Positions 4,412 through 19,961 of a stretch of 20,574 bases of DNA are shown piece by piece. Each line of letters opens with the position of its first letter. The first letter of the stretch is position 1. The DNA lies in the IMG/VR virus record IMGVR_UViG_3300038309_000047, positions 1 to 20,574 of that record; one strand, given 5' to 3'. The notes under the pieces were generated by a model, which saw only the letters and a program-made list of their open reading frames with translations, had not been told where the DNA came from and searched no databases. Position numbers and translations under genes: made by a program. The DNA comes from a virus.

Positions 4412-5674
4412 TTAGCCGGTGTAGACCGCGTTTCCATTGCGGGACGGATCTTTGTTACAAGTACCATACCACACGAATGGACGAATGCGGCAGTTCAGAG
4501 TGGTAAGACTGGCATCATAAGCAACATACAACTTCAAGCCGCCGGCCATCGTCTTAGACTCAACCTTCATGCCATTGAACTGATTCAGCAGGTCAAGAGG
4601 AGCGTCGCCGCCAACGATGCAGATGGAGTCTTTAGCCCAGAAAGAACAGGCTTGGCCACCGGTTGCATTGACTTTTGAAACCGTCATTCCAGACACGATT
4701 GCAGTGCTGATGTTGGCATATGCTGCTTGCGCAGTAGTAATGCCAGCCTGGTCAGCAGCGATCGGCTTGGGATATACGGTGATGACGTTGGTTGCCTTGG
4801 AAATGATGCGGAAAGTCATCAGCTGTCCGGTGTCGGTCTTGTCCTTGATACCAAGAGCATTGACGCCGGCAAACGTAATGACATCGCCAACCTGATAGTT
4901 AGTGCCGTCGGTTAGCGTGATTGTTCCGTACCGATAATCCACGTTGACGTTTACCCCGCCGGTAGTGGTATAACCAGCAGGAACCTCAGTCACGTCACTG
5001 GCAACGGTTGTGGTTGTCGCATTAGTGCGGGCTACCACGGTGCCGTAGGTTGGAGCCTTGTAGACGCCAAACCCAGCAACATCGCTGTTGATCAGGCCAG
5101 TGGTGTAAGCAGAGTCAATCTTTCCTGTAATCTCGGCGTTACGCTTGGCCAGATCTGAAGCCATCACCTGATTTACACGAGGCGGAAGAGTAAAGTATTT
5201 ACCCATTCCAGTGTAAATCTGACGCTCTGTCATGATGGTGTCGGCCTCTGCCACAAAATCGAACCCGGTAGAGTTTGATTCGTAGTACATCGTGCCAGTG
5301 GTAGCGATAAGATCAGCAATCGTCTTATTCAGATCAGATTGTAGAGTGCTGGCCGCCGCAATAGCGGAACGCTCCATGAATCGAGGGTCTCGCAGATCGT
5401 CAACGCGGTATTCCATGAAGTCGTTCTGAGGGGTTCCCAGGGTCAGCGGGTAGTACTGCTCGATTGTTCCGGTTTCAAGACCAGTTAAATCCCAGCCAGA
5501 AATCGCCTTGCGTTGTTGTTCCACAGTTCTCCAATACACGTTAGATGAGTTTTGGAGAGTGCCCGGGGAAACGTTATCGACATCGGTTAACGCAGTATAG
5601 AGGTCGTTGTCCTCCATCTGCTTCATCACTTCATCGAAAAAGGTGGCAATGATCTTGCCTGTTGAATTAGCCAT
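4412..5674 (-). CDS. P22-like major capsid (coat) protein
   Basis: The product has 420 residues; P22 gp5 has 430. The N-terminus (residues 1-35, MANSTGKIIATFFDEVMKQM...) and the stretch around 86-115 (FMEYRVDDLRDPRFMERSAI, then an Ala-rich helix) fit the N-arm, E-loop and spine parts of an HK97-type fold as seen in the P22 coat family. Residues about 225-340 form a Thr/Gly/Val-rich beta insertion (TTTGGVNVNVDYRYGTITL, YQVGDVITFAGVNA), matching the location of the P22 'insertion domain' that stabilises the monomer and intercapsomer contacts. The C-terminus returns to core strands (LNCRIRPFVWYGTCNKDPSR). A strong AAGGTG site lies before the ATG. It follows the scaffold gene by only 8 nt, as in P22 (8 then 5). 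Confidence 0.92.
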   Translation of the reverse strand: MANSTGKIIATFFDEVMKQMEDNDLYTALTDVDNVSPGTLQNSSNVYWRTVEQQRKAISGWDLTGLETGTIEQYYPLTLGTPQNDFMEYRVDDLRDPRFMERSAIAAASTLQSDLNKTIADLIATTGTMYYESNSTGFDFVAEADTIMTERQIYTGMGKYFTLPPRVNQVMASDLAKRNAEITGKIDSAYTTGLINSDVAGFGVYKAPTYGTVVARTNATTTTVASDVTEVPAGYTTTGGVNVNVDYRYGTITLTDGTNYQVGDVITFAGVNALGIKDKTDTGQLMTFRIISKATNVITVYPKPIAADQAGITTAQAAYANISTAIVSGMTVSKVNATGGQACSFWAKDSICIVGGDAPLDLLNQFNGMKVESKTMAGGLKLYVAYDASLTTLNCRIRPFVWYGTCNKDPSRNGNAVYTG

Positions 5675-5682
5675 AAATCACC

Positions 5683-6612
5683 TTATGTTTTGAGCGTCAC
5701 GCCCAGCGCCCTAGCCTTTCTCCGAATATCCACCAGCTTGCTAAAATCTTCCTCCTTGTCATACTGCTCTTGGAGTTTTTTAGCTTCGATTGTGGTATCG
5801 GCATCACCTTTCAGTGATTCATCAGGCTCCGGGGCTCGGCTGACTTGTTTTCGTTGCTTGGGTTTCAGTTTTTCGGCCAGGCGCGTCATGTGAGCAATCG
5901 CAGATAATCCATTTGGATCTTTTCGCAATAGCTCTTTCAGTTGCTCTCTGGCGGTTTCGTTCGTACCAAGGTAAAAACCAACACGGTCTTTACCTTCACC
6001 AACAGAATCAAGAAGATACACCATGCTTCCCTCAACGCCTGTTGCTTCATCGATTTCAGACGTTGCTGTGTTCAGTGCATCAGCTACACGGTCAACTGAG
6101 ATTTTGTTTTCGCTGGCGAACTTCGCTGCGGCTCCAGCTACACTTTTCGTATAGCCTTCAATGCGTTTGCGATATTCTTCCTTCGCGTTTTGGTTTGCAG
6201 TCTCAGCCCCTTTATGGCGGTTTTGATAGGTGTCCATATCAGCCCACCATTTCTTAATCGCCGCGTCATACTGCTCTTTCGTCTCGATACCATCCTCATA
6301 CATTTGAGGAAAGGATGGAGCGTCAGAGTGACTTGTCGGGGGCGAAGAGATTCGGCTTTCAAGTTCTGCAAGGCGCTTTTTAAGCTCCTCATTTTCGCCT
6401 TCTGCCGATTGCGCACGCTTACGCTGTTTGGCCAGCTTATGGACCAAAACCTCTTCAGGTGTGTACTGTTGGCTGGGTTCTGGCTCACCCACAAGCTCAA
6501 GCTCGAATTCACCATCAAGTTCAGGTTCCTCAATCTCCACAGGCGTTTCTTGTGGCTCTTGGAAGTCTTCGATTTCGTGATTCTGCTCTTGCTCTAAATT
6601 TTCCAGTGTCAT
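5683..6612 (-). CDS. P22-like scaffolding protein
   Basis: The product has 309 residues (P22 gp8: 303) and is highly charged with almost no aromatic core. Residues 1-50 are strongly acidic (many Glu, e.g. ETPVEIEEPELDGEFELELV). Residues about 57-92 form a heptad-like coiled coil (VLVHKLAKQRKRAQ...EELKKRLAELESRI). The body is helical, and the C-terminus ends in a basic helix (DIRRKARALGVTLKT), the feature P22 gp8 uses to bind coat. Scaffold assembles inside the procapsid with coat and leaves before DNA packaging. Position between portal and coat is the P22 order. GCGGA lies before the ATG. A 71-nt gap separates it from the portal stop. Confidence 0.9.
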   Translation of the reverse strand: MTLENLEQEQNHEIEDFQEPQETPVEIEEPELDGEFELELVGEPEPSQQYTPEEVLVHKLAKQRKRAQSAEGENEELKKRLAELESRISSPPTSHSDAPSFPQMYEDGIETKEQYDAAIKKWWADMDTYQNRHKGAETANQNAKEEYRKRIEGYTKSVAGAAAKFASENKISVDRVADALNTATSEIDEATGVEGSMVYLLDSVGEGKDRVGFYLGTNETAREQLKELLRKDPNGLSAIAHMTRLAEKLKPKQRKQVSRAPEPDESLKGDADTTIEAKKLQEQYDKEEDFSKLVDIRRKARALGVTLKT

Positions 6613-6683
6613 AGATTTTCCGCTCTATTTAACGTTATATGGAAACCGCCATACTCGGTATAGGGATTTGCGCCCTACTCGCT

Positions 6684-8741
6684 TTAGTGAACTCTCATGG
6701 ATGGCGGCATAAGAACCTGCTGTAGCTTCTGCACGTTATCCAGTTTTGTGCCCGTAATTTCTTGCAAGGCATGAGTGCTTTTAATGCCAAGATTTTGTAT
6801 TTCTGCTGCTGTCTTCATGCGCTCGGTTTGTGCTTTAAATGCCTTCACTTGCACATCGGCCTGCTTGGTCTGCGCATTTATTTGGTCAGCCTGAGCCTTA
6901 CCGATTTCTGCCTGAGCAGCCAACAACATCGGGTCCGGCGCTTGATTCTGCTGTGATTGCTGTGCCTGCTGCAAAAATGCTTTCTCTTCATCTGATTCTG
7001 GCTCAATTATGCCCTGCAATATCAACTGCTTCCGCGCATATTCTCGCAAATCATCCATTTTTGGACCATCAAGAAGAGTAAGATAAGTCAGCAGAATTAT
7101 GTTGCCTTCTGGTGTTCCCTGGAGAACTGAGAACAACTCTTTCAGTTCGGCCCTCGCCTGTTCTTTCTGGGTAGAGAATGATGGACCGGGGTCTGCATAA
7201 ACTTCGAACTTACCCTTTGATATGTCATTCAAAACAATATCTTGCTGAGTTTCTGGGTCGAATACTGTTTCCTGTATCTTGACATCCTTCTCTGTACCAT
7301 CAGGTAATGTTATATCAACTTCGCGGGGTACATCATAGAGTTCAGCCGCCATGGATGCATATATTCTGCCGGCCTGCTTCATGGCAAGCGCGAACGAGTT
7401 CTGATAGAGGAACGTCTCCATGTTCTGGAATGATCGCGCCTGCGTGATCTGGGCATCTGTAACCTGCCCTGACAACATCTGGTTTTGATCCAGCTGGGTT
7501 CCAGTAACATCATCCACAGCTCTACGGGTAAGCTCCAATAAGCCTACAATAGATTGAGGTATCTGGGGCGGCGGAGAAGTCGCAATGGGGCCGGGAGGGT
7601 ATGGCTGCCCTGTCAATTTACTGACCTCATTCAATTGACGATAGGGAAGGTCTTCGCCGGCTTGAGTCCAATAGATTTCCTGACCCTGTATTTGCCCAGG
7701 ATAGAAGACAGGCTTTTCCCGGGGTGAGGTTGCTACTGTACCGGCCGTATAACTCATAGACCAGTTATGCAGCCTTTGGGCATCTTGAGCGTCCCAGTAG
7801 ATCCCACGCCAAATCTCCCGGCCTTCTACCCTGGACCAATCCCCATAAACAGGAACTACAGGGATGTGCTCGCCTGGCACCCGCTGAGTTTTTAGAATGC
7901 TTTTGCCATCAACTAGATATTTGGTAACAATCCAGCGATCCTTGAACTTTTGCCCAATCTGTTGAAATCCGCCCTGCTCCATTTCGTCAATCACGTCTTT
8001 GACTTTGCTGGCATATACGGCCATGGTCTGGCCCAGTGGATCTTCGAAAATTAGGACTTTTTCGCGCTTCTTTTCCTTGAAGTAGAATTCAGCTACTTTT
8101 ACTTGGTCTTTGCTTGAACCCCAAAAGAAAACATTGGATGTATTAGGGTCTTTAAATGGCGATGGGCTTTCTTCGTATGTTAACTTGTTTTCCTGGCAAT
8201 ACTGTTTCCAGCCATCCTTTGTGAATGTTGAAAGTACTGCACACCACCGAGCATCAGACTTGTCTTTCTTTTTTGCGTTTGCATCCCAATAAACAACATT
8301 ATTCGCCTCATTGATAGGCTCAGCGCGAATTCGCTGATAGTTGTTCATATCATCAAATTGTGATTCATATTCAGTTACAAATCGGAATGCTCCATATCCG
8401 CAATCAACTTGATCCTGAAGGGCTGTTTCAATAGCTTCCTCTGACCTCAGCATGTCAGCTCGATACATCCCTGAAAGCGTTTCTGCCGCATCAGGATCAG
8501 CACCATCTTTTGCCTTGAATGTAATGTCAATAGGATTGGACCACAGTTCAGCAAGAATGCGATTACGCTTCGACTTGATTAGGTCAAACGTCCCCCTAAA
8601 GTCGGCGTTAACATCCTGCCCTATAATGTCATCCCATTGGCTAATACGGCCAAATACCAGCATGTTACTGGCTTCTTCACGGGTTGCGCTCGTGCTTGAA
8701 TCAGCAGCATCAACGAGTTTTTTGATTTGCTCTAAATCCAT
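6684..8741 (-). CDS. P22-like portal protein
   Basis: The product has 685 residues (P22 gp1: 725). It begins with MDLEQIKKLVDAADSSTS and continues with the P22-family portal pattern: RGTFDLIKSKRNRILAELWS near residue 50, QVDCGYGAFRFVTEYES near 110, clip/stem-type segments (GEHIPVVPVYGDW; SIVGLLELTRRAVDDVTGTQ). From about residue 590 to the end it is Gln/Ala-rich and helical (LLAAQAEIGKAQADQINAQT), suggesting the long C-terminal 'barrel' helices that sense head filling in P22. Portal forms the dodecameric entry channel for DNA at one capsid vertex. It overlaps the 3' end of the terminase gene by 32 nt and precedes the scaffold gene. Confidence 0.95.
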   Translation of the reverse strand: MDLEQIKKLVDAADSSTSATREEASNMLVFGRISQWDDIIGQDVNADFRGTFDLIKSKRNRILAELWSNPIDITFKAKDGADPDAAETLSGMYRADMLRSEEAIETALQDQVDCGYGAFRFVTEYESQFDDMNNYQRIRAEPINEANNVVYWDANAKKKDKSDARWCAVLSTFTKDGWKQYCQENKLTYEESPSPFKDPNTSNVFFWGSSKDQVKVAEFYFKEKKREKVLIFEDPLGQTMAVYASKVKDVIDEMEQGGFQQIGQKFKDRWIVTKYLVDGKSILKTQRVPGEHIPVVPVYGDWSRVEGREIWRGIYWDAQDAQRLHNWSMSYTAGTVATSPREKPVFYPGQIQGQEIYWTQAGEDLPYRQLNEVSKLTGQPYPPGPIATSPPPQIPQSIVGLLELTRRAVDDVTGTQLDQNQMLSGQVTDAQITQARSFQNMETFLYQNSFALAMKQAGRIYASMAAELYDVPREVDITLPDGTEKDVKIQETVFDPETQQDIVLNDISKGKFEVYADPGPSFSTQKEQARAELKELFSVLQGTPEGNIILLTYLTLLDGPKMDDLREYARKQLILQGIIEPESDEEKAFLQQAQQSQQNQAPDPMLLAAQAEIGKAQADQINAQTKQADVQVKAFKAQTERMKTAAEIQNLGIKSTHALQEITGTKLDNVQKLQQVLMPPSMRVH

Positions 8742-10242
8742 TCCGCGAACCCATAGGCCTTATTGGTGGTGGTACATATGCTTCTTGAACAACCGAATGA
8801 ATGCGACCTGCAAGCGCACCCATTGCGATATACTGAAGTGCATCATGAGGATGAGAATATAAATTCTTTTCCGGCTCCTCCTTGTATCTCGCATCACCAG
8901 AGACATTGAGAAGTCGGTATTTATAACCACCCTGGAATCCCTTTCTGATGATCTTGCAGCGCCTATCTATAACCAAGCCGGGCTGCCCATCAACCATTTT
9001 TGTCAGATAGTGTCTTACTGACTCTGTACGCTTCACAATGATATTGCTTGGCGCTCCTTCTGTCAGAAATCCCATTTCCAAAGGAACGGTTTGTTCTTCG
9101 TCATCTGTTGAAATGTCATTCAAGATGTTCAGTGATGCTTTTGCCTCTGTTTCGTGCCTGATCTTTCCAGCCGGATCAGCCATGGAAAGCCCAATACTTG
9201 CAATAGGATATTTTTGTGCGAGAAACGGCTTTACCACGTCTCTGGCGAACTGTTTTACGCCCATATCTGTTGCGGCAAGTTCATCTATTATTCTCAGTTG
9301 TCCCCTGTCAGTAATCTGAACAATTACTATACATGGAGTTAGCCCAAAATCCCATCCTATGCCGATGGGCAAATGAGGAAGGAAGTTAACGCCTGACTCT
9401 GGGCAATGGACAAGATCATTGTATTCTGGGTAAACAGGCTTACCATCGACTACCAAACCATACTCGTTGCCCAGGTTCACCGAAATCCAGTCAGATGATT
9501 TTCCAGCCATACCCTTTTCATAATATCCAGGCGGAAGGTTACTCAGATTCTCGGCGTTCGGGTTAGGCTCAAATATCGGTTGCCCCAATTCGTTTTTCCT
9601 GTCTGTCCTGATAACCCCGCCAGGCTGACGATAGAAATCCCAGCCTTCCGGGTGATCTTCCTCGGCCAGTTTATAATACCAGTGAACATCATCAGGGGCG
9701 TTAGTGTCGCCAATCATACCATGCCAAGTAGGGCCAATACCGCCAGTGGCCATTGATGGGTATCGCCCATGCCGAAGATCGGCCATGTCAACGACCGCTT
9801 TGGGTAATTCTTTAACCTCATTCAGCCAGAACCCTGTGGCTTGCGCTCCGCGTAATTTTTTAACATGCTCAGGCCTATCAAGAGCGAGAAAAATTACCTC
9901 AGTTTGAACCATGGTTCCGTCATCAAGCCTAAATTGCGCTTTCCATGATGGAGGTTCCTTGTTTCCTGCCTTGAAAGTTCCTAGATCGCCAAAAAGTCCG
10001 GTCCAGTCCTTAATCGTCGTTGAAAACAGTTCAGAATATGTGTTCCTGATGGCAATCCATCTGGTTGGCCGAATTCCTTCTTTGTTTGGCTCCTGCTCCG
10101 TCATTAGCTTTATGATTTTTTGGCAAGCCTGAATGGTTTTACCTGAACCAAGCGGCCCCATGATAAAACTTACCCTAGCTCTCGATCTATGGAATTTCGC
10201 AAGGACTTCACCCTGCGCTTTCATCCTGATCTGTGTCTGCAT
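8710..10242 (-). CDS. terL: Terminase large subunit (packaging ATPase and nuclease)
   Basis: The product has 510 residues. The N-terminal ATPase has a Walker A loop GPLGSGKT (residues 29-36) and a Walker B/catalytic Glu segment ATGFWLNE (135-142). An RNase H-like nuclease domain follows: first acidic residue in GIGWDFG (D298), further candidates ELAATD near 321-326 and MADPAG (D356), and a last one in SHPHDALQYI (D467). It docks on the portal, pumps DNA into the procapsid and cuts the concatemer. It overlaps the small terminase gene by 35 nt and the portal gene by 32 nt, a typical packaging cassette. The ATPase start differs from what I remember of P22 gp2, so it may belong to another TerL branch combined with a P22-like capsid. 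Confidence 0.97.
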   Translation of the reverse strand: MQTQIRMKAQGEVLAKFHRSRARVSFIMGPLGSGKTIQACQKIIKLMTEQEPNKEGIRPTRWIAIRNTYSELFSTTIKDWTGLFGDLGTFKAGNKEPPSWKAQFRLDDGTMVQTEVIFLALDRPEHVKKLRGAQATGFWLNEVKELPKAVVDMADLRHGRYPSMATGGIGPTWHGMIGDTNAPDDVHWYYKLAEEDHPEGWDFYRQPGGVIRTDRKNELGQPIFEPNPNAENLSNLPPGYYEKGMAGKSSDWISVNLGNEYGLVVDGKPVYPEYNDLVHCPESGVNFLPHLPIGIGWDFGLTPCIVIVQITDRGQLRIIDELAATDMGVKQFARDVVKPFLAQKYPIASIGLSMADPAGKIRHETEAKASLNILNDISTDDEEQTVPLEMGFLTEGAPSNIIVKRTESVRHYLTKMVDGQPGLVIDRRCKIIRKGFQGGYKYRLLNVSGDARYKEEPEKNLYSHPHDALQYIAMGALAGRIHSVVQEAYVPPPIRPMGSRNGFRANQKTR

Positions 10243-10657
10243 CTTCGCCCGTCAGGTCAATGATTTTAACGGTTTTAACGTTAACATCGTGCTCTTGCTT
10301 GTCTCGCCACTCATCCGGGCGTCGATTCTTGAGCCAGAAAATAGCTGCAACAGTATCAGGAGGGTAGTGTTTAACGGTAGGAACCACCATAGGCTCCCCA
10401 TTATTGTTGAAAATCTTATCTTCAGGGCAACTGTAGCCTGTGGCTCGTTCATACAGAGACCTAACGACCCTTTCGTCAGCCTCGGCCTTCCACTTATCCA
10501 GCATTTCTTTGAATTCTGGATGCGCGTTCTGCCAACGATACCAGGTTGCAATCCCGACATCGAAAAATTCAGCCAAGTCATTGTTAGTGAGGCCTAGCTT
10601 TGCTAGCTTTTCTACTTTTGATAGGTCAATGCCATCAAACTTTGAATTTTGGCCCAT
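10208..10657 (-). CDS. terS: Terminase small subunit
   Basis: The product has 149 residues. The N-terminus contains a helix-turn-helix-like segment (residues about 15-44: VEKLAKLGLTNNDLAEFFDV then GIATWYRWQNAHPEF), used to recognise the packaging site. The core region has the family pattern ERATGYSCPEDKIF, then TVKHYPPDTVAAIFWLKNRR and PDEWRDKQ. The C-terminal tail is acidic. TerS forms a ring that selects viral DNA and feeds it to TerL. The start forms a TAATG overlap with the stop of the upstream basic protein gene, and the end overlaps terL by 35 nt. Confidence 0.93.
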   Translation of the reverse strand: MGQNSKFDGIDLSKVEKLAKLGLTNNDLAEFFDVGIATWYRWQNAHPEFKEMLDKWKAEADERVVRSLYERATGYSCPEDKIFNNNGEPMVVPTVKHYPPDTVAAIFWLKNRRPDEWRDKQEHDVNVKTVKIIDLTGEDADTDQDESAG

Positions 10658-14463: not shown

Positions 14464-14620
14464 GTTTCAACTCCGCTCCGCAAAAAATGCAATGTTTTTT
14501 CCGTTCGGTGCTATTGTGCTCATCAATCCATTTATTCCAGAGCTCGACTGTGAATTTTTTCGGTTCGACGATTCTCTTATCAAATTCATCGTCTGATTGT
14601 TTTTCTTGATCGGCCATCAT
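14450..14620 (-). CDS. Small acidic/basic protein with CxxC motif (56 aa)
   Basis: This short frame begins with ATG-ATG (MMADQEK...); the first ATG overlaps the stop of the upstream holin-like gene (ATGA), and the stop lies 12 nt inside the next gene. It is highly charged, with a Trp-containing helix (FTVELWNKWIDEHNSTERKK) and a C-terminal HCIFCGAEL. One CxxC preceded by His could be half of a zinc or treble-clef site. Coupled overlaps on both sides make it likely to be translated. No family recognised. Confidence 0.55.
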   Translation of the reverse strand: MMADQEKQSDDEFDKRIVEPKKFTVELWNKWIDEHNSTERKKHCIFCGAELKREKN

Positions 14621-15147
14621 TTCCCGATCGCAGCTTTCATTTGTGTGAATGCGCTGACACCTTTCCCAATCTGGCGCAGTCCTGCATATGCAAATGGCAA
14701 TGTGAGCAGAGCGCCGAGAATTACAGGGTCAGGACTTTGCGATTGCAGCGCATAGTAGATAGCAGCAAATAGACTTAGCCAGCTCTGACCTGGCCGGGTG
14801 TAGCGAACAAATGGATATTCCGAGTTATCGCCGTTTCGGATTGTGAGCTGGGTTTGTTCTTGCTCTTTCTGGGCATCCTGGAGCTGTAGATTTGTCATGG
14901 CCTCCAGGTGCTTGCGGATGCTGTCCTTCTCATCATCTGCCAGTTTTTGCAGCGCGATGATGGTTTGCGGATCTTGCTGCAATGCAGAGAGGGCTTTTTG
15001 TGGGTCGTTAGTGCCTGTGGCTGAGCTGATCATTGATATTCCAGCTGCTACAGCGCCAGGTACATTGCCTGTGGCTAGCGATCCAATCAACGCGGCGCCT
15101 TTGCCAGCGTTCTGTTCCAGCCATTTGCCGACATCGGACCAATTCAT
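14617..15147 (-). CDS. Holin-like protein, 3-TM GTA-holin type (176 aa)
   Basis: The product has 176 residues. It begins MNWSDVGKWLEQNAGKGAAL, with an Ala/Gly-rich hydrophobic stretch (about 18-42, LIGSLATGNVPGAVAAGISM). A long polar helical region follows (DPQTIIALQKLADDEKDSIR...). Then comes the family-like segment FVRYTRPGQSWLSLFAAIYY (about 113-132) and a last hydrophobic helix (VILGALLTLPFAYAGL). The order 'helix - charged helix - R-Y-x-R-P - two TM helices' matches the 'holin of 3TMs' family of gene transfer agents and phages. Holins permeabilise the inner membrane and time lysis. It follows the other holin-like gene with an ATGA overlap, so the two may act together or as holin and antiholin. 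Confidence 0.75.
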   Translation of the reverse strand: MNWSDVGKWLEQNAGKGAALIGSLATGNVPGAVAAGISMISSATGTNDPQKALSALQQDPQTIIALQKLADDEKDSIRKHLEAMTNLQLQDAQKEQEQTQLTIRNGDNSEYPFVRYTRPGQSWLSLFAAIYYALQSQSPDPVILGALLTLPFAYAGLRQIGKGVSAFTQMKAAIGK

Positions 15148-15488
15148 TCGTCACCTATTTTTCGATCAATCCATCGATTGATTAGTTTGAAAATGTTCCG
15201 CGTCCCAAGATGTCCGGCAACTGCAGCGGCAGCACACATGCTATAGAGATCAGCGGTAAATGCATGCATTCCCATCCCGATAACAACACCCACAAACGCA
15301 CTCGATGAAACCTCTATCGCACCCTCGCCTATTTTCATAGCCGCATGTCTCGCATGCTGATTGTCAACGTATCTCATGAGTCCACCCCAGGCACCGGCAA
15401 TTAATAATCCGATCAGGGTAGCAAACTGGTCGCGACGTTGTAGTAACCATTGCACAATTTGATTGTAAATGCTTGGATCGTCGTGCAA
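15144..15488 (-). CDS. Phage holin, LydA/superfamily III-like (114 aa), TTG start
   Basis: The product has 114 residues with three hydrophobic segments: about 22-40 (FATLIGLLIAGAWGGLMRYV), 57-76 (AIEVSSSAFVGVVIGMGMHA) and 79-97 (TADLYSMCAAAAVAGHLGT). The C-terminus is charged (FKLINRWIDRKIGDE). GAWGGLMRYV and AAAAVAGHLGTRNI resemble the LydA-type holin family. The start is TTG (15486-15488), with GAGG 7 nt upstream; the nearby ATG at 15491-15493 is out of frame and too close to the GAGG. A weak start codon fits the low, timed expression of a holin. It lies between the endolysin/DUF6527 genes and the second holin-like gene. Confidence 0.78.
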   Translation of the reverse strand: MHDDPSIYNQIVQWLLQRRDQFATLIGLLIAGAWGGLMRYVDNQHARHAAMKIGEGAIEVSSSAFVGVVIGMGMHAFTADLYSMCAAAAVAGHLGTRNIFKLINRWIDRKIGDE

Positions 15489-15603
15489 AACATGACCTCA
15501 GTTCTCTGTATTATGTTTGATCATTTTATGGGTTTTGTCACATTTCGCCATGTTTTTGGATATCATCCCGGGGATTTTCGATACTTCGTGGCGATTTACG
15601 CCA

Positions 15604-15981
15604 TTACAAATCTTGTATATCAGGCAAATCTACAGTTTTGCCGGCCAGATGGTGAGTGCAATCGCTCAGGAACTGGATTTTTCCGTCACGAATGAAGCTA
15701 TGGCAAATTCCACACTTAAAGGAAACTTCTTTTTCTGGATGTTCTTCATGGTATTTGCACCAGCATCCATCTCCATATTTTTTTCCGTCAATGTAATGGC
15801 CAGTGCGAACTAGAACTGATGGGCTGAATGTCGGATCATCCACATTTCCGTTAAATGTCCAGTTTGCTTTTGACTCAGGATTGTTGACATTGACAGAATG
15901 AGAATGTTCGCATCCAGGGCATTGAAAACGATATCCAATTATGATGCCTGTATCGTGTTTAAAAAGAGGCCTTACTTTCAT
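15604..15981 (-). CDS. DUF6527 family protein in the lysis cassette (125 aa)
   Basis: The product has 125 residues. FQCPGCEHSHSV (about 19-30), ANWTFNGNVDDPTFSPSVLV (about 39-58) and CGICHSFIRDGKIQFLSDCT followed by HHLAGKTVDLPD (about 90-122) match the DUF6527 signature of phages and prophages. CPGC and the later Cys/His pairs suggest bound zinc. The function is unknown; members are frequently found among late or structural phage genes. It starts in an ATGA overlap with the endolysin stop, with a good GAGG 7 nt upstream, so the two are co-translated. Confidence 0.82.
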   Translation of the reverse strand: MKVRPLFKHDTGIIIGYRFQCPGCEHSHSVNVNNPESKANWTFNGNVDDPTFSPSVLVRTGHYIDGKKYGDGCWCKYHEEHPEKEVSFKCGICHSFIRDGKIQFLSDCTHHLAGKTVDLPDIQDL

Positions 15982-16469
15982 GACAAAACCTCATCTAGTC
16001 CGAGGTATTCGTGATTGACTCGCGACCAGGTTGCGACGTGTTCACCAGGCCGATTGTCGACGTGTAGCAAATTACCCGGGTGCGTATCTACGTATAGGCC
16101 GATTCCGGTGAATCCAACCACCCTGGCGGTTGCGTAGGCTTCCTGGCGCTCTTTCACCGTCTGCATGTATCTGTAGCCGCCTTTTCCATCGGGCACCTTG
16201 GGGAATACGTCAACTGCTCTCACAACGCCCCAGCGATCGATATTGTGCATACTGTGGCCGTCAGGACCGTTATGGCGTCCACGACTGCCATCAACTGGGG
16301 AAATCTCTACCGGATAGCCCCAGAGTTCGCGGAATCGATCGAGCTTTTTCAACAAGTCAGTGCTCATGTCAGGCCACCACTCGCCGAATTCATCAGGAGC
16401 GAAGTGATTCAGCATGAAGTTTTCAACGTCTTTGACTGCCTGAATTGCCTGATCTGATGCAGAACTCAT
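15978..16469 (-). CDS. Endolysin, peptidase M15-like (zinc D,D/L,D-peptidase type)
   Basis: I chose the ATG at 16467-16469 (MSSASDQAIQ), which has AGG 8-9 nt upstream; a longer frame to 16529 lacks a ribosome site. The 163-residue product has an N-terminal helical region, then the M15A-type zinc pattern: SMHNIDRWG (candidate H75), VRAVDVF (D87) and LLHVDNR (H136, with D138). This fold cuts peptide bonds of peptidoglycan stems. There is no signal peptide, so release depends on the holins downstream. It is the first gene of the leftward late operon, facing the divergent rightward cassette, and overlaps the DUF6527 gene by ATGA. Confidence 0.82.
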   Translation of the reverse strand: MSSASDQAIQAVKDVENFMLNHFAPDEFGEWWPDMSTDLLKKLDRFRELWGYPVEISPVDGSRGRHNGPDGHSMHNIDRWGVVRAVDVFPKVPDGKGGYRYMQTVKERQEAYATARVVGFTGIGLYVDTHPGNLLHVDNRPGEHVATWSRVNHEYLGLDEVLS

Positions 16470-16563
16470 TGTTTTACCTGAAGTTTTGTTGTTACAACCT
16501 GAATCACTTTGATTTTTAGGGACTATCATGTCGATAAACCCGACGAACGGTATCTGTTTTCTG

Positions 16564-16881: not shown

Positions 16882-17079
16882 ATGAAACTTTCCCAGCAAA
16901 TCGCCAAAATTCAGGCGCTTAAGTCATCTTTCCGCTTTCGGCTGGCCGCTATTTGTGCGCTCAGGCCGGTGTCTGTCAACGGCAAACGCCCGATTGTTGC
17001 GCTGACTCGCCGCAAAGCCCGATTTTCTGTTCCCGCGACTGACTCCGGGTATGGATTCGGAGACCGTTTCCATGGTTGA
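16882..17079 (+). CDS. Small basic hypothetical protein (65 aa)
   Basis: A strong GTGGAGGA ribosome site directly precedes the ATG at 16882-16884, which supports translation. The 65-residue product is basic: MKLSQQIAKIQALKSSFRFR, then LAAICALRPVSVNGKRPIVA and LTRRKARFSVPATDSG. It has a short amphipathic N-terminal helix and no obvious membrane segment. Its stop lies 8 nt inside the next gene, so it may serve to couple ribosomes onto it. I recognise no family; composition suggests nucleic-acid contact, but that is a guess. Confidence 0.5.
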   Translation: MKLSQQIAKIQALKSSFRFRLAAICALRPVSVNGKRPIVALTRRKARFSVPATDSGYGFGDRFHG

Positions 17080-17701
17080 TATGATAGCCGCTCTATTCGT
17101 CGAAACCGATGGCTGTTACTTCAATCTGCCCGATGTCGACCCGTGGGACATGCAGCGCGATGCTCGGCTGTACGATGGCCCTTATGCTGTTGTCGCCCAT
17201 CCGCCATGTCAGCGCTGGGGCCGGTTCTGGCACGGCTCTACTGCCAAGCCGCATCAGTTCAAAAAAGGCGATGATGGCGGTTGTTTTGCGTCAGCGCTTC
17301 AATCTGTGCGCACATGGGGCGGCGTCCTGGAGCATCCCAAGGACTCGCATGCCTGGGAATGGTTTGGGCTGTCTAAACCGCCCCACACTGGTGGATGGAT
17401 CAAAGCCGATAATTGCGGTGGCTGGACGTGTTGCGTCTACCAGGGCCATTATGGTCATTTTTCAGGCAAGCCGACATGGTTATATGCCAATGGCGTTGAA
17501 CTACCGGAATTGAGATGGGGTAAATGTGAACAGCGATTGCACCCCATTGCCCTGGAAAAACACGGCTACGAAAAAGCCCGACGTATCGGAATGATGGCGA
17601 TGGTCGGAGGTAAAGACAAAACCCGCATCCGCAATGCAACCCCTGTTGAATTTCGCGACGCGCTTTTAGACATCGCCAGAACTGTAAAGGTATCTATATG
17701 A
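17072..17701 (+). CDS. PPC-motif protein, possible minimal C5-methyltransferase-like fold (209 aa)
   Basis: I prefer the ATG at 17072, with GGAG 9 nt upstream; the ATGs at 17051 and 17081 are alternatives. The product (209 residues from this start) contains ALFVETDGCYF near the N-terminus, DVDPWD, AHPPCQRWGRFW, GGVLEHPKDSHAW, GGWTC, YQGHYGHFSGKPTWLYA and a C-terminal RNATPVEFRDALLDIA. HPPCQ resembles motif IV (PPCQ) of DNA cytosine-5 methyltransferases, VLEHP could stand for motif VI (EN), and the Q..YG....K..WLY segment resembles motif VIII. A true motif I (FxGxGG) is not seen, so activity is uncertain. Similar proteins occur in other phages, usually without a function. It ends in an ATGA overlap with the next gene. 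Confidence 0.65.
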   Translation: MVDMIAALFVETDGCYFNLPDVDPWDMQRDARLYDGPYAVVAHPPCQRWGRFWHGSTAKPHQFKKGDDGGCFASALQSVRTWGGVLEHPKDSHAWEWFGLSKPPHTGGWIKADNCGGWTCCVYQGHYGHFSGKPTWLYANGVELPELRWGKCEQRLHPIALEKHGYEKARRIGMMAMVGGKDKTRIRNATPVEFRDALLDIARTVKVSI

Positions 17702-17886
17702 AAAAGCCCGTAAATGACGAGATCAAGCGCAAGCAGGGAACTGCACGCCAGGCTAAGCGCAGGGCCAAAATGCGCGAGGATGGCTTTACCGAGGTTCTGG
17801 TAAAGGTTCCCAACACTGATGAGGCCAAGGCTGACATTGAGGCTGCTGCTGAGTATTTGCGCTCGATGAAAAAGTCAGTAGTTTAA
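17698..17886 (+). CDS. Small basic protein, possibly ribbon-helix-helix-like (62 aa)
   Basis: The ATG overlaps the upstream stop (ATGA). The 62-residue product has a very basic N-terminal helix (KRKQGTARQAKRRAKMREDG), one beta-strand-like segment (FTEVLVKVP), then an acidic/alanine helix (DEAKADIEAAAEYLRSMKKS). Basic arm, one strand and a helix loosely resemble ribbon-helix-helix DNA-binding proteins, so it could be the cassette's own regulator; this is speculative. Its stop codon overlaps the A-run that serves as the U-tract of the opposing leftward terminator. Confidence 0.6.
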   Translation: MKKPVNDEIKRKQGTARQAKRRAKMREDGFTEVLVKVPNTDEAKADIEAAAEYLRSMKKSVV

Positions 17887-17918
17887 AAAAACCCGGCGCT
17901 GCGGGGAGACAGGCCGGG
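17885..17918 (-). terminator. Intrinsic terminator of the leftward rfaH-like/gp49-like operon
   Basis: On the minus strand, CCCGGC (17913-17918) pairs with GCCGGG (17892-17897), followed at once by seven T's (17885-17891). It lies about 90 nt after the gp49-like stop and faces the converging rightward gene. In the rightward direction there is no U-run. Confidence 0.75.
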
Positions 17919-18008: not shown

Positions 18009-18347
18009 TTATGGAGAAATGCTCGGTTCGCAATTTGTGTTGTTTCCGATGTCATGTAATGCCTGTCGCAGCAAATAGCCCTCAAGCGCCCAAATTTTGT
18101 TTCTGGCATTGTCGCGGGCAATCTTACGGCCAAGCTCGGCATCGAAGTTTTCAGGGCTGGCACATGCGCTTTCGCCGATCACGGTATAATCATTCTGCAG
18201 GGTTAGGCAGCATACGGTGACGGTGGTTCCGGGGAAGATATGGTATTGCTCGGTTTTAATAGCATCATCGATTTTCTGAGGCGTCAGGCGCGGGGCGGTC
18301 AGGGATTTGTCTTGGATTTCTTGTTCAACTGCTGTTTCGTTTCTCAT
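18009..18347 (-). CDS. N4 gp49/Sf6 gp66 family protein (112 aa)
   Basis: The start is the ATG at 18345-18347, with GAGGAA about 8 nt upstream; a longer frame reaches 18437 but would overlap the rfaH-like gene and swallow the ops-like element. The 112-residue product contains RLTPQKIDDAIKTEQYHIFP (20-39) and QNDYTVIGESACASPENFDA followed by ELGRKIARDNARNKIWALEG YLL (51-93), the signature of the Phage_gp49_66 family (TGESACxxxxNFDxExGxxxA...iWxlEGYLL). The family is widespread in phages and its function is unknown. It is the last gene before the leftward terminator and the first after the ops-like site. Confidence 0.9.
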   Translation of the reverse strand: MRNETAVEQEIQDKSLTAPRLTPQKIDDAIKTEQYHIFPGTTVTVCCLTLQNDYTVIGESACASPENFDAELGRKIARDNARNKIWALEGYLLRQALHDIGNNTNCEPSISP

Positions 18348-18380: not shown

Positions 18381-18392
18381 GACGCTACCGCC
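18381..18392 (-). promoter_or_regulatory. ops-like element (RfaH recognition sequence)
   Basis: The minus (coding) strand reads GGCGGTAGCGTC. The established E. coli ops core is GGCGGTAG and the extended element GGCGGTAGCGTG, so the core is perfect and the whole matches 11 of 12. It begins about 19 nt after the stop of the RfaH-like gene and lies 33 nt before the gp49-like ATG, in a 64-nt non-coding gap. RfaH reads ops on the non-template strand of a paused complex; this orientation is correct for leftward transcription. The one mismatch (last G to C) is at the position thought to follow the pause. Confidence 0.7.
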
Positions 18393-18411: not shown

Positions 18412-18891
18412 CTAGCGGCAGATGAATTTGTTTTCAATTGTAATCAAAGACTTCTGATTTAGCAATTTTAGCATGATATGTGAGCGTTTCAAGCCATCTG
18501 GCTCTTTAAATATCGCCGTCAGCCCCTTGAGCGGGCCAGCTGTGATATGCACGACTTCCCCCGATTTGAACCCATCAGAATGCTCTGCATGCTCAAACGT
18601 TTTTTTAATGATTTCAATGGCTTGATTTGGTATAGAGGCGAGGATTCCGCCGAAACTGACCAAGCTTGTGACGCCGATCGTGTTGTTAATCGTGTAGGCT
18701 GATTGGGTTTCAGGATCGAAATTGACAAAAACATAACTGCGAAATGCTGGCTCTATCCTGGCCTCCAGCTTGCCCTTGCGCAATCGCTCCAGGTTGATCA
18801 GAGGCTTGTATGTTTCGAAGCCCTGGCGCTCCAGGTTGTCCTGTGCCAGATCTTCGTTACCATACTTCGTGCGGATCAAATACCAGGCCAT
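18412..18891 (-). CDS. RfaH-like transcription antiterminator (NusG family), 159 aa
   Basis: The product has 159 residues (E. coli RfaH: 162) and aligns by eye along its whole length. The NGN domain covers about 1-100: WYLIRTKYGN at 3-12, LERQGFETYKPLINLER at 20-36, EPAFRSYVFVNFDPE at 47-61, YTINNTIGVTSLVSFG at 66-81. The linker and KOW-type C-terminal domain (about 111-157) has GEVVHITAGPLKGLTAIF and KEPDGLKRSHIMLKLLN. From memory of RfaH, contact residues K10, R23, Q24, T68 and N70 correspond to K9, R22, Q23, T67 and N69, and the autoinhibitory pair E48-R138 to E47-R136. RfaH binds RNA polymerase at ops, suppresses pausing and termination and recruits ribosomes. GGAG lies 8 nt before the ATG, just after the upstream stop. 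Confidence 0.92.
   Translation of the reverse strand: MAWYLIRTKYGNEDLAQDNLERQGFETYKPLINLERLRKGKLEARIEPAFRSYVFVNFDPETQSAYTINNTIGVTSLVSFGGILASIPNQAIEIIKKTFEHAEHSDGFKSGEVVHITAGPLKGLTAIFKEPDGLKRSHIMLKLLNQKSLITIENKFICR
18437..18465 (-). promoter_or_regulatory. Candidate promoter inside the 3' end of the rfaH-like gene
   Basis: On the minus strand, TTGCTA (18460-18465) and TACAAT (18437-18442) are exactly 17 nt apart. Transcription would start near 18430, placing the ops-like element at about +38 to +50 in the leader. The region is AT-rich, so a chance match is possible. Confidence 0.4.
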
Positions 18892-19152: not shown

Positions 19153-19671
19153 TCAATCACCAATCGGTACGTTTTCGTGAAGCTGCCCTGCCATGATTTT
19201 GTATTTCCCGTTTTCAATCAGCATCGAATTATCCGTTTTTCGCGCTTTCTCTAACTCCCGCGATGTGATGTTCAGCTGCTTTGATTTTACCCGCAGAACC
19301 ACGGCCATGAATGCGTCACGCCAGTTGAACAATTTTTCTTTGATGCTTGGCTTGTAATCCGACAATTCAAATTCGATAAATTCATCGCCTTTGTCGACGT
19401 TCTCTACTTCAATTATAGCTCGCTTTATTCTGTTGTCGTTGAATCCGTATTTTTTCTGCATGCAGTCAATAAACGGTTTGATTGCATTATCGAAATCCGA
19501 TCCCAAGCTGCTAAAGCCAAAGGTTAGTCTTATGCACATCAAGCCTTCCGGAACTTCTATTTTAGGCAACAATAGCAATACATCACGCTCGTATTTTTCA
19601 TACGCCGGCGTTTTGAATCGGCGTCCCTTCCATGCCTCATTGACGCTCAGCGGTTTTATATCAATCCTCAT
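19153..19671 (-). CDS. RusA-like Holliday junction resolvase with C-terminal extension
   Basis: The product has 172 residues; E. coli RusA has 120. The N-terminus has the family opening PLSVNEAWKGRRFKTPAYEK YER (7-29). The acidic active-site cluster is SDFDNAIKPFIDCMQKKYGF (58-77), giving D59, D61, K65 and D69, followed by NDNRI with D79, which matches RusA's D-x-D-N...K...D...DD pattern. RusA cuts Holliday junctions and in phages resolves branched DNA before packaging. Residues from about 105 on (SIKEKLFNWRDAFMAVVLRV...) are an extra charged helical region not typical of RusA. It starts in an ATGA overlap with the DUF1364 gene, another recombination-linked gene. Confidence 0.85.
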   Translation of the reverse strand: MRIDIKPLSVNEAWKGRRFKTPAYEKYERDVLLLLPKIEVPEGLMCIRLTFGFSSLGSDFDNAIKPFIDCMQKKYGFNDNRIKRAIIEVENVDKGDEFIEFELSDYKPSIKEKLFNWRDAFMAVVLRVKSKQLNITSRELEKARKTDNSMLIENGKYKIMAGQLHENVPIGD

Positions 19672-19961
19672 CTGACCACCAACAATCCTTTTTCAATCCA
19701 AAACAAATGCGTCCTGATCATGGCTCGGCGCGTGTAGAATAATTCATCCAGCTCGCTGCCTCGATGTTGATCTAGCCATTCGTGGCATGAAGAGCAGGAG
19801 ATACAAGCTGATATATCGTCAGTCTTCCCGCCCATTATTCCACCGTCAACTTGGATATGGGCCAAAACTGAAGTCTCCGGATTTCCGTTGCAAACCCCAG
19901 CAACCTGCATTGTGCATTCCTGGCCTTTTGCGGATTCACGAAGTTTTTTTGATATAATCAT
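19668..19961 (-). CDS. DUF1364 / YbcO-like putative nuclease
   Basis: The product has 97 residues. LRESAKGQECTMQVAGVCNG (8-27), NPETSVLAHI (27-36), SACISCSSCHEWLDQ (51-65) and RTHLFWIEKGLL (83-94) follow the family pattern 'LRkaArGreCqvRipGvCngnpeTtVLaHir...iACsaCHd..D' closely. Candidate metal ligands are C16, C24, H35, C56/C59 and H60, in an HNH-like (beta-beta-alpha-metal) arrangement. E. coli YbcO, from the DLP12 prophage, belongs here and is considered a nuclease. Next to RusA in the nin-like region it probably works in phage recombination. ATGA overlaps with both neighbours. Confidence 0.88.
   Translation of the reverse strand: MIISKKLRESAKGQECTMQVAGVCNGNPETSVLAHIQVDGGIMGGKTDDISACISCSSCHEWLDQHRGSELDELFYTRRAMIRTHLFWIEKGLLVVR

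Follow-up and report, generated by a model that had tools for sequence, protein, structure and literature searches.

RfaH, a textbook fold-switching protein, is a bacterial factor that helps RNA polymerase to continue through long operons; it has been described for surface, toxin, and conjugation operons of bacteria. The ops element, where RfaH joins RNA polymerase, has the sequence GGCGGTAGCGTG in E. coli; residues H20 and R73 of E. coli RfaH contact it, and alanine mutants of these residues lose recruitment (PMC5995543). E. coli RfaH mainly counters pausing and Rho, and its effect at intrinsic terminators is weak (PMC7819879). The nearest precedent for the locus described here is AnfA1 with ops at the antifeeding prophage (afp) of Serratia entomophila; ops is also found in Photorhabdus virulence cassettes (PMC6748792). 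In our literature search, which covered few subscription papers, we found neither a phage whose late operon has an RfaH and an ops of its own nor an RfaH or NusG late antiterminator of a phage. Here we describe a phage that carries RfaH and ops just before its lysis and capsid genes, which suggests that an RfaH-type switch stands where lambda-like phages use Q.

The window, that is, the whole stretch of DNA analysed, is a 20,574-bp IMG/VR virus fragment (IMGVR_UViG_3300038309_000047) of a P22/BcepC6B-like phage encoding a P22-type portal and coat. Its TerL is up to 50% identical to that of Pseudoalteromonas phage vB_Pun_Y3 and 48% identical to that of Burkholderia phage BcepC6B; none of the deposited phages closely matches the window, and no Rfam family was found in it. 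Nearly all of the genes are on the minus strand. Their order is YbcO nuclease, RusA-like resolvase, a small gene, rfaH, ops, and a gp49-family gene, followed by a terminator, two plus-strand genes, the lysis genes, TerS, TerL, portal, scaffold, and coat. The features are as follows.

19153..19961, minus strand: recombination genes upstream of rfaH
19668-19961, minus strand: YbcO nuclease
19153-19671, minus strand: RusA-like resolvase
18412..18891, minus strand: phage rfaH, 159 amino acids, RfaH-family NusG paralogue (NGN domain and KOW-type C-terminal domain, CTD)
18437..18492, minus strand: two overlapping sigma-70-like promoter candidates, weak, inside the coding 3' end of rfaH
18381..18392, minus strand: ops element GGCGGTAGCGTC, 11/12 bases of E. 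coli ops
18009..18347, minus strand: gp49/gp66-family phage gene (PF13876), the first gene after ops
17885..17918, minus strand: intrinsic terminator facing the late direction, stem CCCGGC...GCCGGG and then T7
17051-17886, plus strand: two genes, one of PHROG 12600 and one a small basic ORF, located past the terminator and ahead of the lysis genes
14617..16529, minus strand: lysis region with small genes, on the strand of ops and downstream of it
15978-16529, minus strand: probable endolysin (weak match)
15144-15488, minus strand: holin
4412..10657, minus strand: packaging and head genes
10208-10657, minus strand: TerS
8710-10242, minus strand: TerL
6684-8741, minus strand: P22-type portal
5683-6612, minus strand: scaffold
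4412-5674, minus strand: P22-type coat

The putative lysis enzyme at 15978-16529 (minus strand) differs in kind from its counterpart in L002 and L003, two phage records of the same lineage, where it reads as muramidase-like; this is a module swap.

The gene at 18412-18891 on the minus strand, a strand that the first-pass annotation had not given, encodes an RfaH-family protein and not a housekeeping NusG. The first-pass annotation had aligned the protein by eye to E. coli RfaH over its whole length, had taken it for an RfaH-type paralogue rather than a general NusG, and had proposed a profile search and a tree as checks. The full-length alignment was reproduced, with residues 2-154 matching E. 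coli RfaH (PDB 2oug, E=1.6e-26) at approximately 38% identity. The reference sequences used are what we take to be those of E. coli RfaH and NusG, and the former agrees with the 2oug alignment. The score with the RfaH equivalog PRK09014 (NCBIfam) was 136.0 bits, which passes the cutoff of 124, while the cutoff of the RfaH profile TIGR01955 was narrowly missed (138.8 bits, cutoff 144.5). The UpxY (73 bits, cutoff 100) and LoaP (62.5 bits, cutoff 125) profiles stayed under their cutoffs, and the NusG equivalog TIGR00922 was far under (32.7 bits, cutoff 135.7). All of the phage copies pass the PRK09014 cutoff, and that of L004 passes TIGR01955 too. In the tree, the copies of the window, L002, L003, L004, and L027 form one clade (95/96), a branch with values of 99/94 unites them with enterobacterial and plasmid RfaH, and NusG is set apart (100/99). 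The protein thus lies on the RfaH side of the tree, fails the NusG profile, and does not group with housekeeping NusG, as had been anticipated.

The ops element GGCGGTAGCGTC begins 19 bases past the rfaH stop codon on the same strand, beyond the interval covered by the first-pass annotation. It keeps positions 1-11 of E. coli ops, including G5 and T6, which are read by RfaH, and G8, which is needed by the non-template hairpin. Position 12 is C, equal to the G12C variant of E. coli ops, in which the U11 pause is lost and RfaH recruitment is retained (PMC5995543). At up to one mismatch, this is the sole ops in the window. The only other 12-mer match at up to two mismatches, 16125-16136 on the plus strand, is within chance.

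The arrangement of rfaH, ops after 17-43 bases, and late genes was found in three phage lineages, namely the window with L002 and L003, L004, and L027, which is a phage with other terminase and portal types. RfaH identity between the three lineages is only 42-55% (L004, 55%; L027, 44%). The ops matches at 11/12 bases in all five records, and its distance from the rfaH stop codon is 19-20 nt in L002 and L003, 17 nt in L004, and 43 nt in L027. Dinucleotide shuffles gave a chance of ops of 1e-6 per position, so approximately 6e-5 per lineage within 60 nt. The DNA flanking ops has background-level identity between the lineages. Depending on the phage, ops is followed by the gp49 gene, a stretch without a gp49 gene, lysis-region genes, or terS; in L003, L004, and L027, the gp49-family gene does not immediately follow ops. 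Because different genes come after ops in different phages, ops does not belong to a conserved coding block. The site-specific action proposed by the first-pass annotation is strongly supported by ops adjoining rfaH in three lineages. Recruitment of RfaH at the phage ops is strongly implied by these sequences, and this phage protein probably binds this ops.

A genome-contig scan returned enterobacterial, Vibrio, and Photorhabdus RfaH with identities of up to 43%; among the 80 loci kept, no close prophage relative of the phage RfaH was found, and 0/80 had ops within 300 bp of the chromosomal rfaH. Among viral contigs, the motif G[LF]xAIFxEPDG was confined to L004, L002, and a single host-contaminated contig; this RfaH type is thus rare there. 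The exact 16-mer TTGGCGGTAGCGTCTC occurred in 14 stretches of viral contigs. It was beside rfaH only in L005 (the L003 contig) and L007 (the L004 contig), and the other stretches look like chance. The two best RfaH matches in the phage collection were Salmonella chromosome contigs and were set aside. Three records filed as phage (AFYI01000004.1, AGRM01000003.1, and MW495066.1) look like bacterial DNA; such bacterial-looking records hold chromosomal rfaH with tat genes or, in Microcystis phage MaAM05, secE-nusG-rplK-rplA.

Alternatively, rfaH and ops may have been captured jointly from a cellular polysaccharide operon, with ops now functionless. The betaproteobacterial loci L136 and L139 have RfaH and a perfect ops close together before apparent exopolysaccharide genes. 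However, ops positions 1-11 have been kept in the phages despite a dS of 0.58-0.77 among the rfaH genes of the window, L002, and L003, saturated synonymous divergence from L004, and flanks at background identity. The dN/dS among the first three genes is 0.03-0.07; therefore, phage rfaH is maintained under strong purifying selection. Such passive inheritance is highly improbable.

The betaproteobacterial-type RfaH and ops loci (L136:10357-11022, L139:6787-7444, L129:11960, and L135:10334) are on prophage-bearing contigs and also carry serine-type recombinase and ParB-like genes. Their perfect ops is 150-180 bp past the RfaH copy in L136 and L139 and before a winged-helix gene in L129. At L129:5563-6495 and L136:5464-6501, adjacent to prophage lysis genes, ORFs of 310 and 345 amino acids have RfaH behind an N-terminal helix-turn-helix-like extension; these ORFs are possibly fusions or have a wrong start. 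The cellular rfaH-ops cassette of betaproteobacteria may resemble the source of the phage cassette. The alignment of alpha- and betaproteobacterial RfaH was too diverse to use for scanning.

The residue assignments of the first-pass annotation were confirmed. The phage protein keeps K9, R22, Q23, T67, N69, E47, F128, and R136, and the replaced residues are R16 (L15), H20 (N19), and R73 (I72); I93 is also kept, as I92. In E. coli numbering, the ops-contact residues K10 and R23 are therefore kept in the window, and H20 and R73 are changed to N and I. Every phage copy keeps K10, Q24, N70, T72, I93, F130, and R138, and every copy has changed H20 and R73, with N at 20 and I, T, K, or Y at 73. The combination of N20 with L, K, or V at 73 is normal in betaproteobacterial RfaH beside perfect ops (L129, L135, L136, and L139; four such loci, compared with 0.02 expected by chance), and Photorhabdus RfaH also has N20. 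Because betaproteobacterial RfaH beside perfect ops have similar changes, the changes probably do not speak against the use of ops.

All four of the autoinhibition residues (E48, I93, F130, and R138) are present in the window. L027 has K replacing E48; therefore, the E48-R138 salt bridge is not kept across the whole phage clade. This bears on another explanation, in which the phage protein on RNA polymerase displaces NusG and host RfaH genome-wide and shields phage RNA from Rho without ops. Proteins of the RfaH type bind tightly to RNA polymerase and keep NusG off it (PMC7819879), and substituting E48 in E. coli RfaH permits recruitment that is independent of ops (PMC7593976), which would fit L027. 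However, ops is kept beside rfaH in all lineages, L027 included, and the complete set of autoinhibition residues in the window also speaks against this explanation, which we regard as quite improbable.

AlphaFold2 with a mixed alignment of 26 RfaH sequences predicted a helix at residues 133-145; the first helix of the CTD was unformed, and a full hairpin was not obtained. With phage sequences only, the pLDDT of the CTD was below 50. The mixed-alignment model best matches autoinhibited RfaH (5ond, 8pfg, and 2oug; Z ~16, best 16.3; aligned to residue 149). The first-pass annotation had asked whether the CTD is an all-alpha hairpin docked on the NGN domain; the predicted CTD is only partly helical. 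Of the proposed fold-switching, site-specific factor, the site-specific part is strongly supported, and the phage RfaH may or may not switch its fold.

In the window and L004, rfaH and ops are located between replication or recombination genes and lysis or head genes, which is the place of lambda gene Q. In L027, they are directly before terS-terL-portal; this record begins 228 bp upstream of rfaH, and its early side is outside it. The Q families PF06530 and PF03589 were not found in the window, L002, L003, L004, or L027, all of which are fragments; a Q or a late sigma factor may therefore be encoded elsewhere.

We propose that the phage RfaH is probably the late antiterminator, loading at its own linked ops in the place of lambda Q. 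Together, rfaH and ops would make up an antitermination module in which gene and site are linked, placed where the early genes give way to the late genes. RfaH would be produced from the early transcript, and RNA polymerase pausing later at ops, just past rfaH, would recruit it. The RfaH-loaded polymerase would be carried on into the late operon, where RfaH would exclude NusG and Rho, suppress pausing, and possibly couple the ribosome. The position of the gene is what points to a late-gene role; the late genes would presumably need RfaH, and the promoter that starts late transcription is likewise putative.

A different role for the protein would be that of a moron product. RfaH made in lysogens would act in trans on host ops sites (LPS, capsule, and pili) and alter the surface, for example for phage exclusion, and the adjoining ops would serve only the upkeep of rfaH itself. 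In cells, RfaH acts as a regulator of surface operons (PMC7593976), and the phage protein belongs to this family. However, ops comes after rfaH, toward the late genes, in three lineages; the sole ops of the window is the one adjacent to rfaH; rfaH occupies the Q position and not a moron location; and the 80 loci kept from the genome-contig scan were all chromosomal RfaH, with no prophage relative among them. This role is unlikely.

For the late antiterminator, the terminator and the promoters have to be considered. The terminator at 17918-17885, downstream of ops and the gp49 gene, is strong (-28.0 kcal/mol for an 81-nt segment, z -3.4), and L002 and L003 contain the same sequence element. Approximately 30 bp past ops, L004 shows a terminator-like hairpin with T7 whose folding energy is not exceptional. 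Because intrinsic terminators are poorly overcome by E. coli RfaH, getting past the one in the window would take either a stronger effect or a promoter downstream of it. Pattern matching found no sigma-70-like site on the late strand from 18437 to 15706 of the window. The promoter candidates, which are also pattern matches only, are TTGAAA-16-TAAAAT with TG and TTGCTA-17-TACAAT, with -10 boxes 45-73 bp upstream of ops. By the same kind of match, counterparts are present in L002, in L003 (the first one only), and in L004 (the second one only), and in L027 rfaH is preceded by a perfect consensus promoter. The weakness of the candidates in the window and their location within coding sequence are points against a late switch. 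Late RNA would run antisense through the two genes at 17051-17886, because both are on the plus strand between the terminator and the lysis genes.

A broader reading is that several tailed-phage lineages have swapped Q for a self-contained, movable RfaH/ops module, with a fold-switching protein as a dedicated late antiterminator that passes intrinsic terminators; we consider the chances of this to be even. If the late role is true, it links phage Q/N antitermination and that by NusG paralogues, which have hitherto been studied apart. It would also provide diverged RfaH/ops pairs, with H20 and R73 replaced and position 12 of ops changed, for testing how the site is read, and would point to phages as vehicles for the spread of specialised NusG paralogues.

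Compared with E. coli RfaH/ops, the phage system has a protein of the same family, as indicated by the HMM and the tree, a 12-nt site that is the same except at position 12, several of the ops-contact residues, and all of the tested autoinhibition residues in the window. It differs in that the gene is a phage gene, the site is linked to it, and H20, R16, and R73 are changed. E. coli RfaH targets unlinked surface operons, whereas the target of the phage RfaH would be the phage late operon. With lambda Q, it has in common a gene located, in the window and L004, where early genes meet late genes (YbcO/RusA-like genes before, lysis genes after) and, presumably, the task of helping polymerase through a terminator to reach the lysis and head genes. 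However, the two proteins belong to unrelated families, and the phage RfaH would act at an ops pause, whereas Q acts at a promoter-linked Q site.

The afp locus also combines an RfaH-like regulator with a tightly linked operon that derives from a phage tail and carries ops (PMC6748792), but what it encodes is a plasmid-borne tail-like particle rather than the late genes of a phage, and AnfA1 is only distantly homologous to RfaH. Plasmid RfaH/ActX and NusG paralogues in tra operons are likewise carried by mobile elements, in or before the operon that they presumably serve (PMC7593976; L118 and L119). Unlike the phage copies, they have no ops (up to one mismatch) within 1.5 kb and are outside the phage clade in the tree. 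Divergent NusG paralogues of other phages (PHROG 6386; L022:9884-10516, L023:9857-10507, and L029:741-1298, with no ops match) are carried by Bradyrhizobium phage ppBjS10J-1, Agrobacterium phage Rivra, and an IMG/VR phage. They resemble the phage rfaH in their location, which is where the early genes end, a short distance before terS or close to the end of the genome, but are 24-36% identical, with L022 and L029 under the RfaH cutoffs and no ops nearby. NusG-type late regulators may be more widely spread than their RfaH/ops form.
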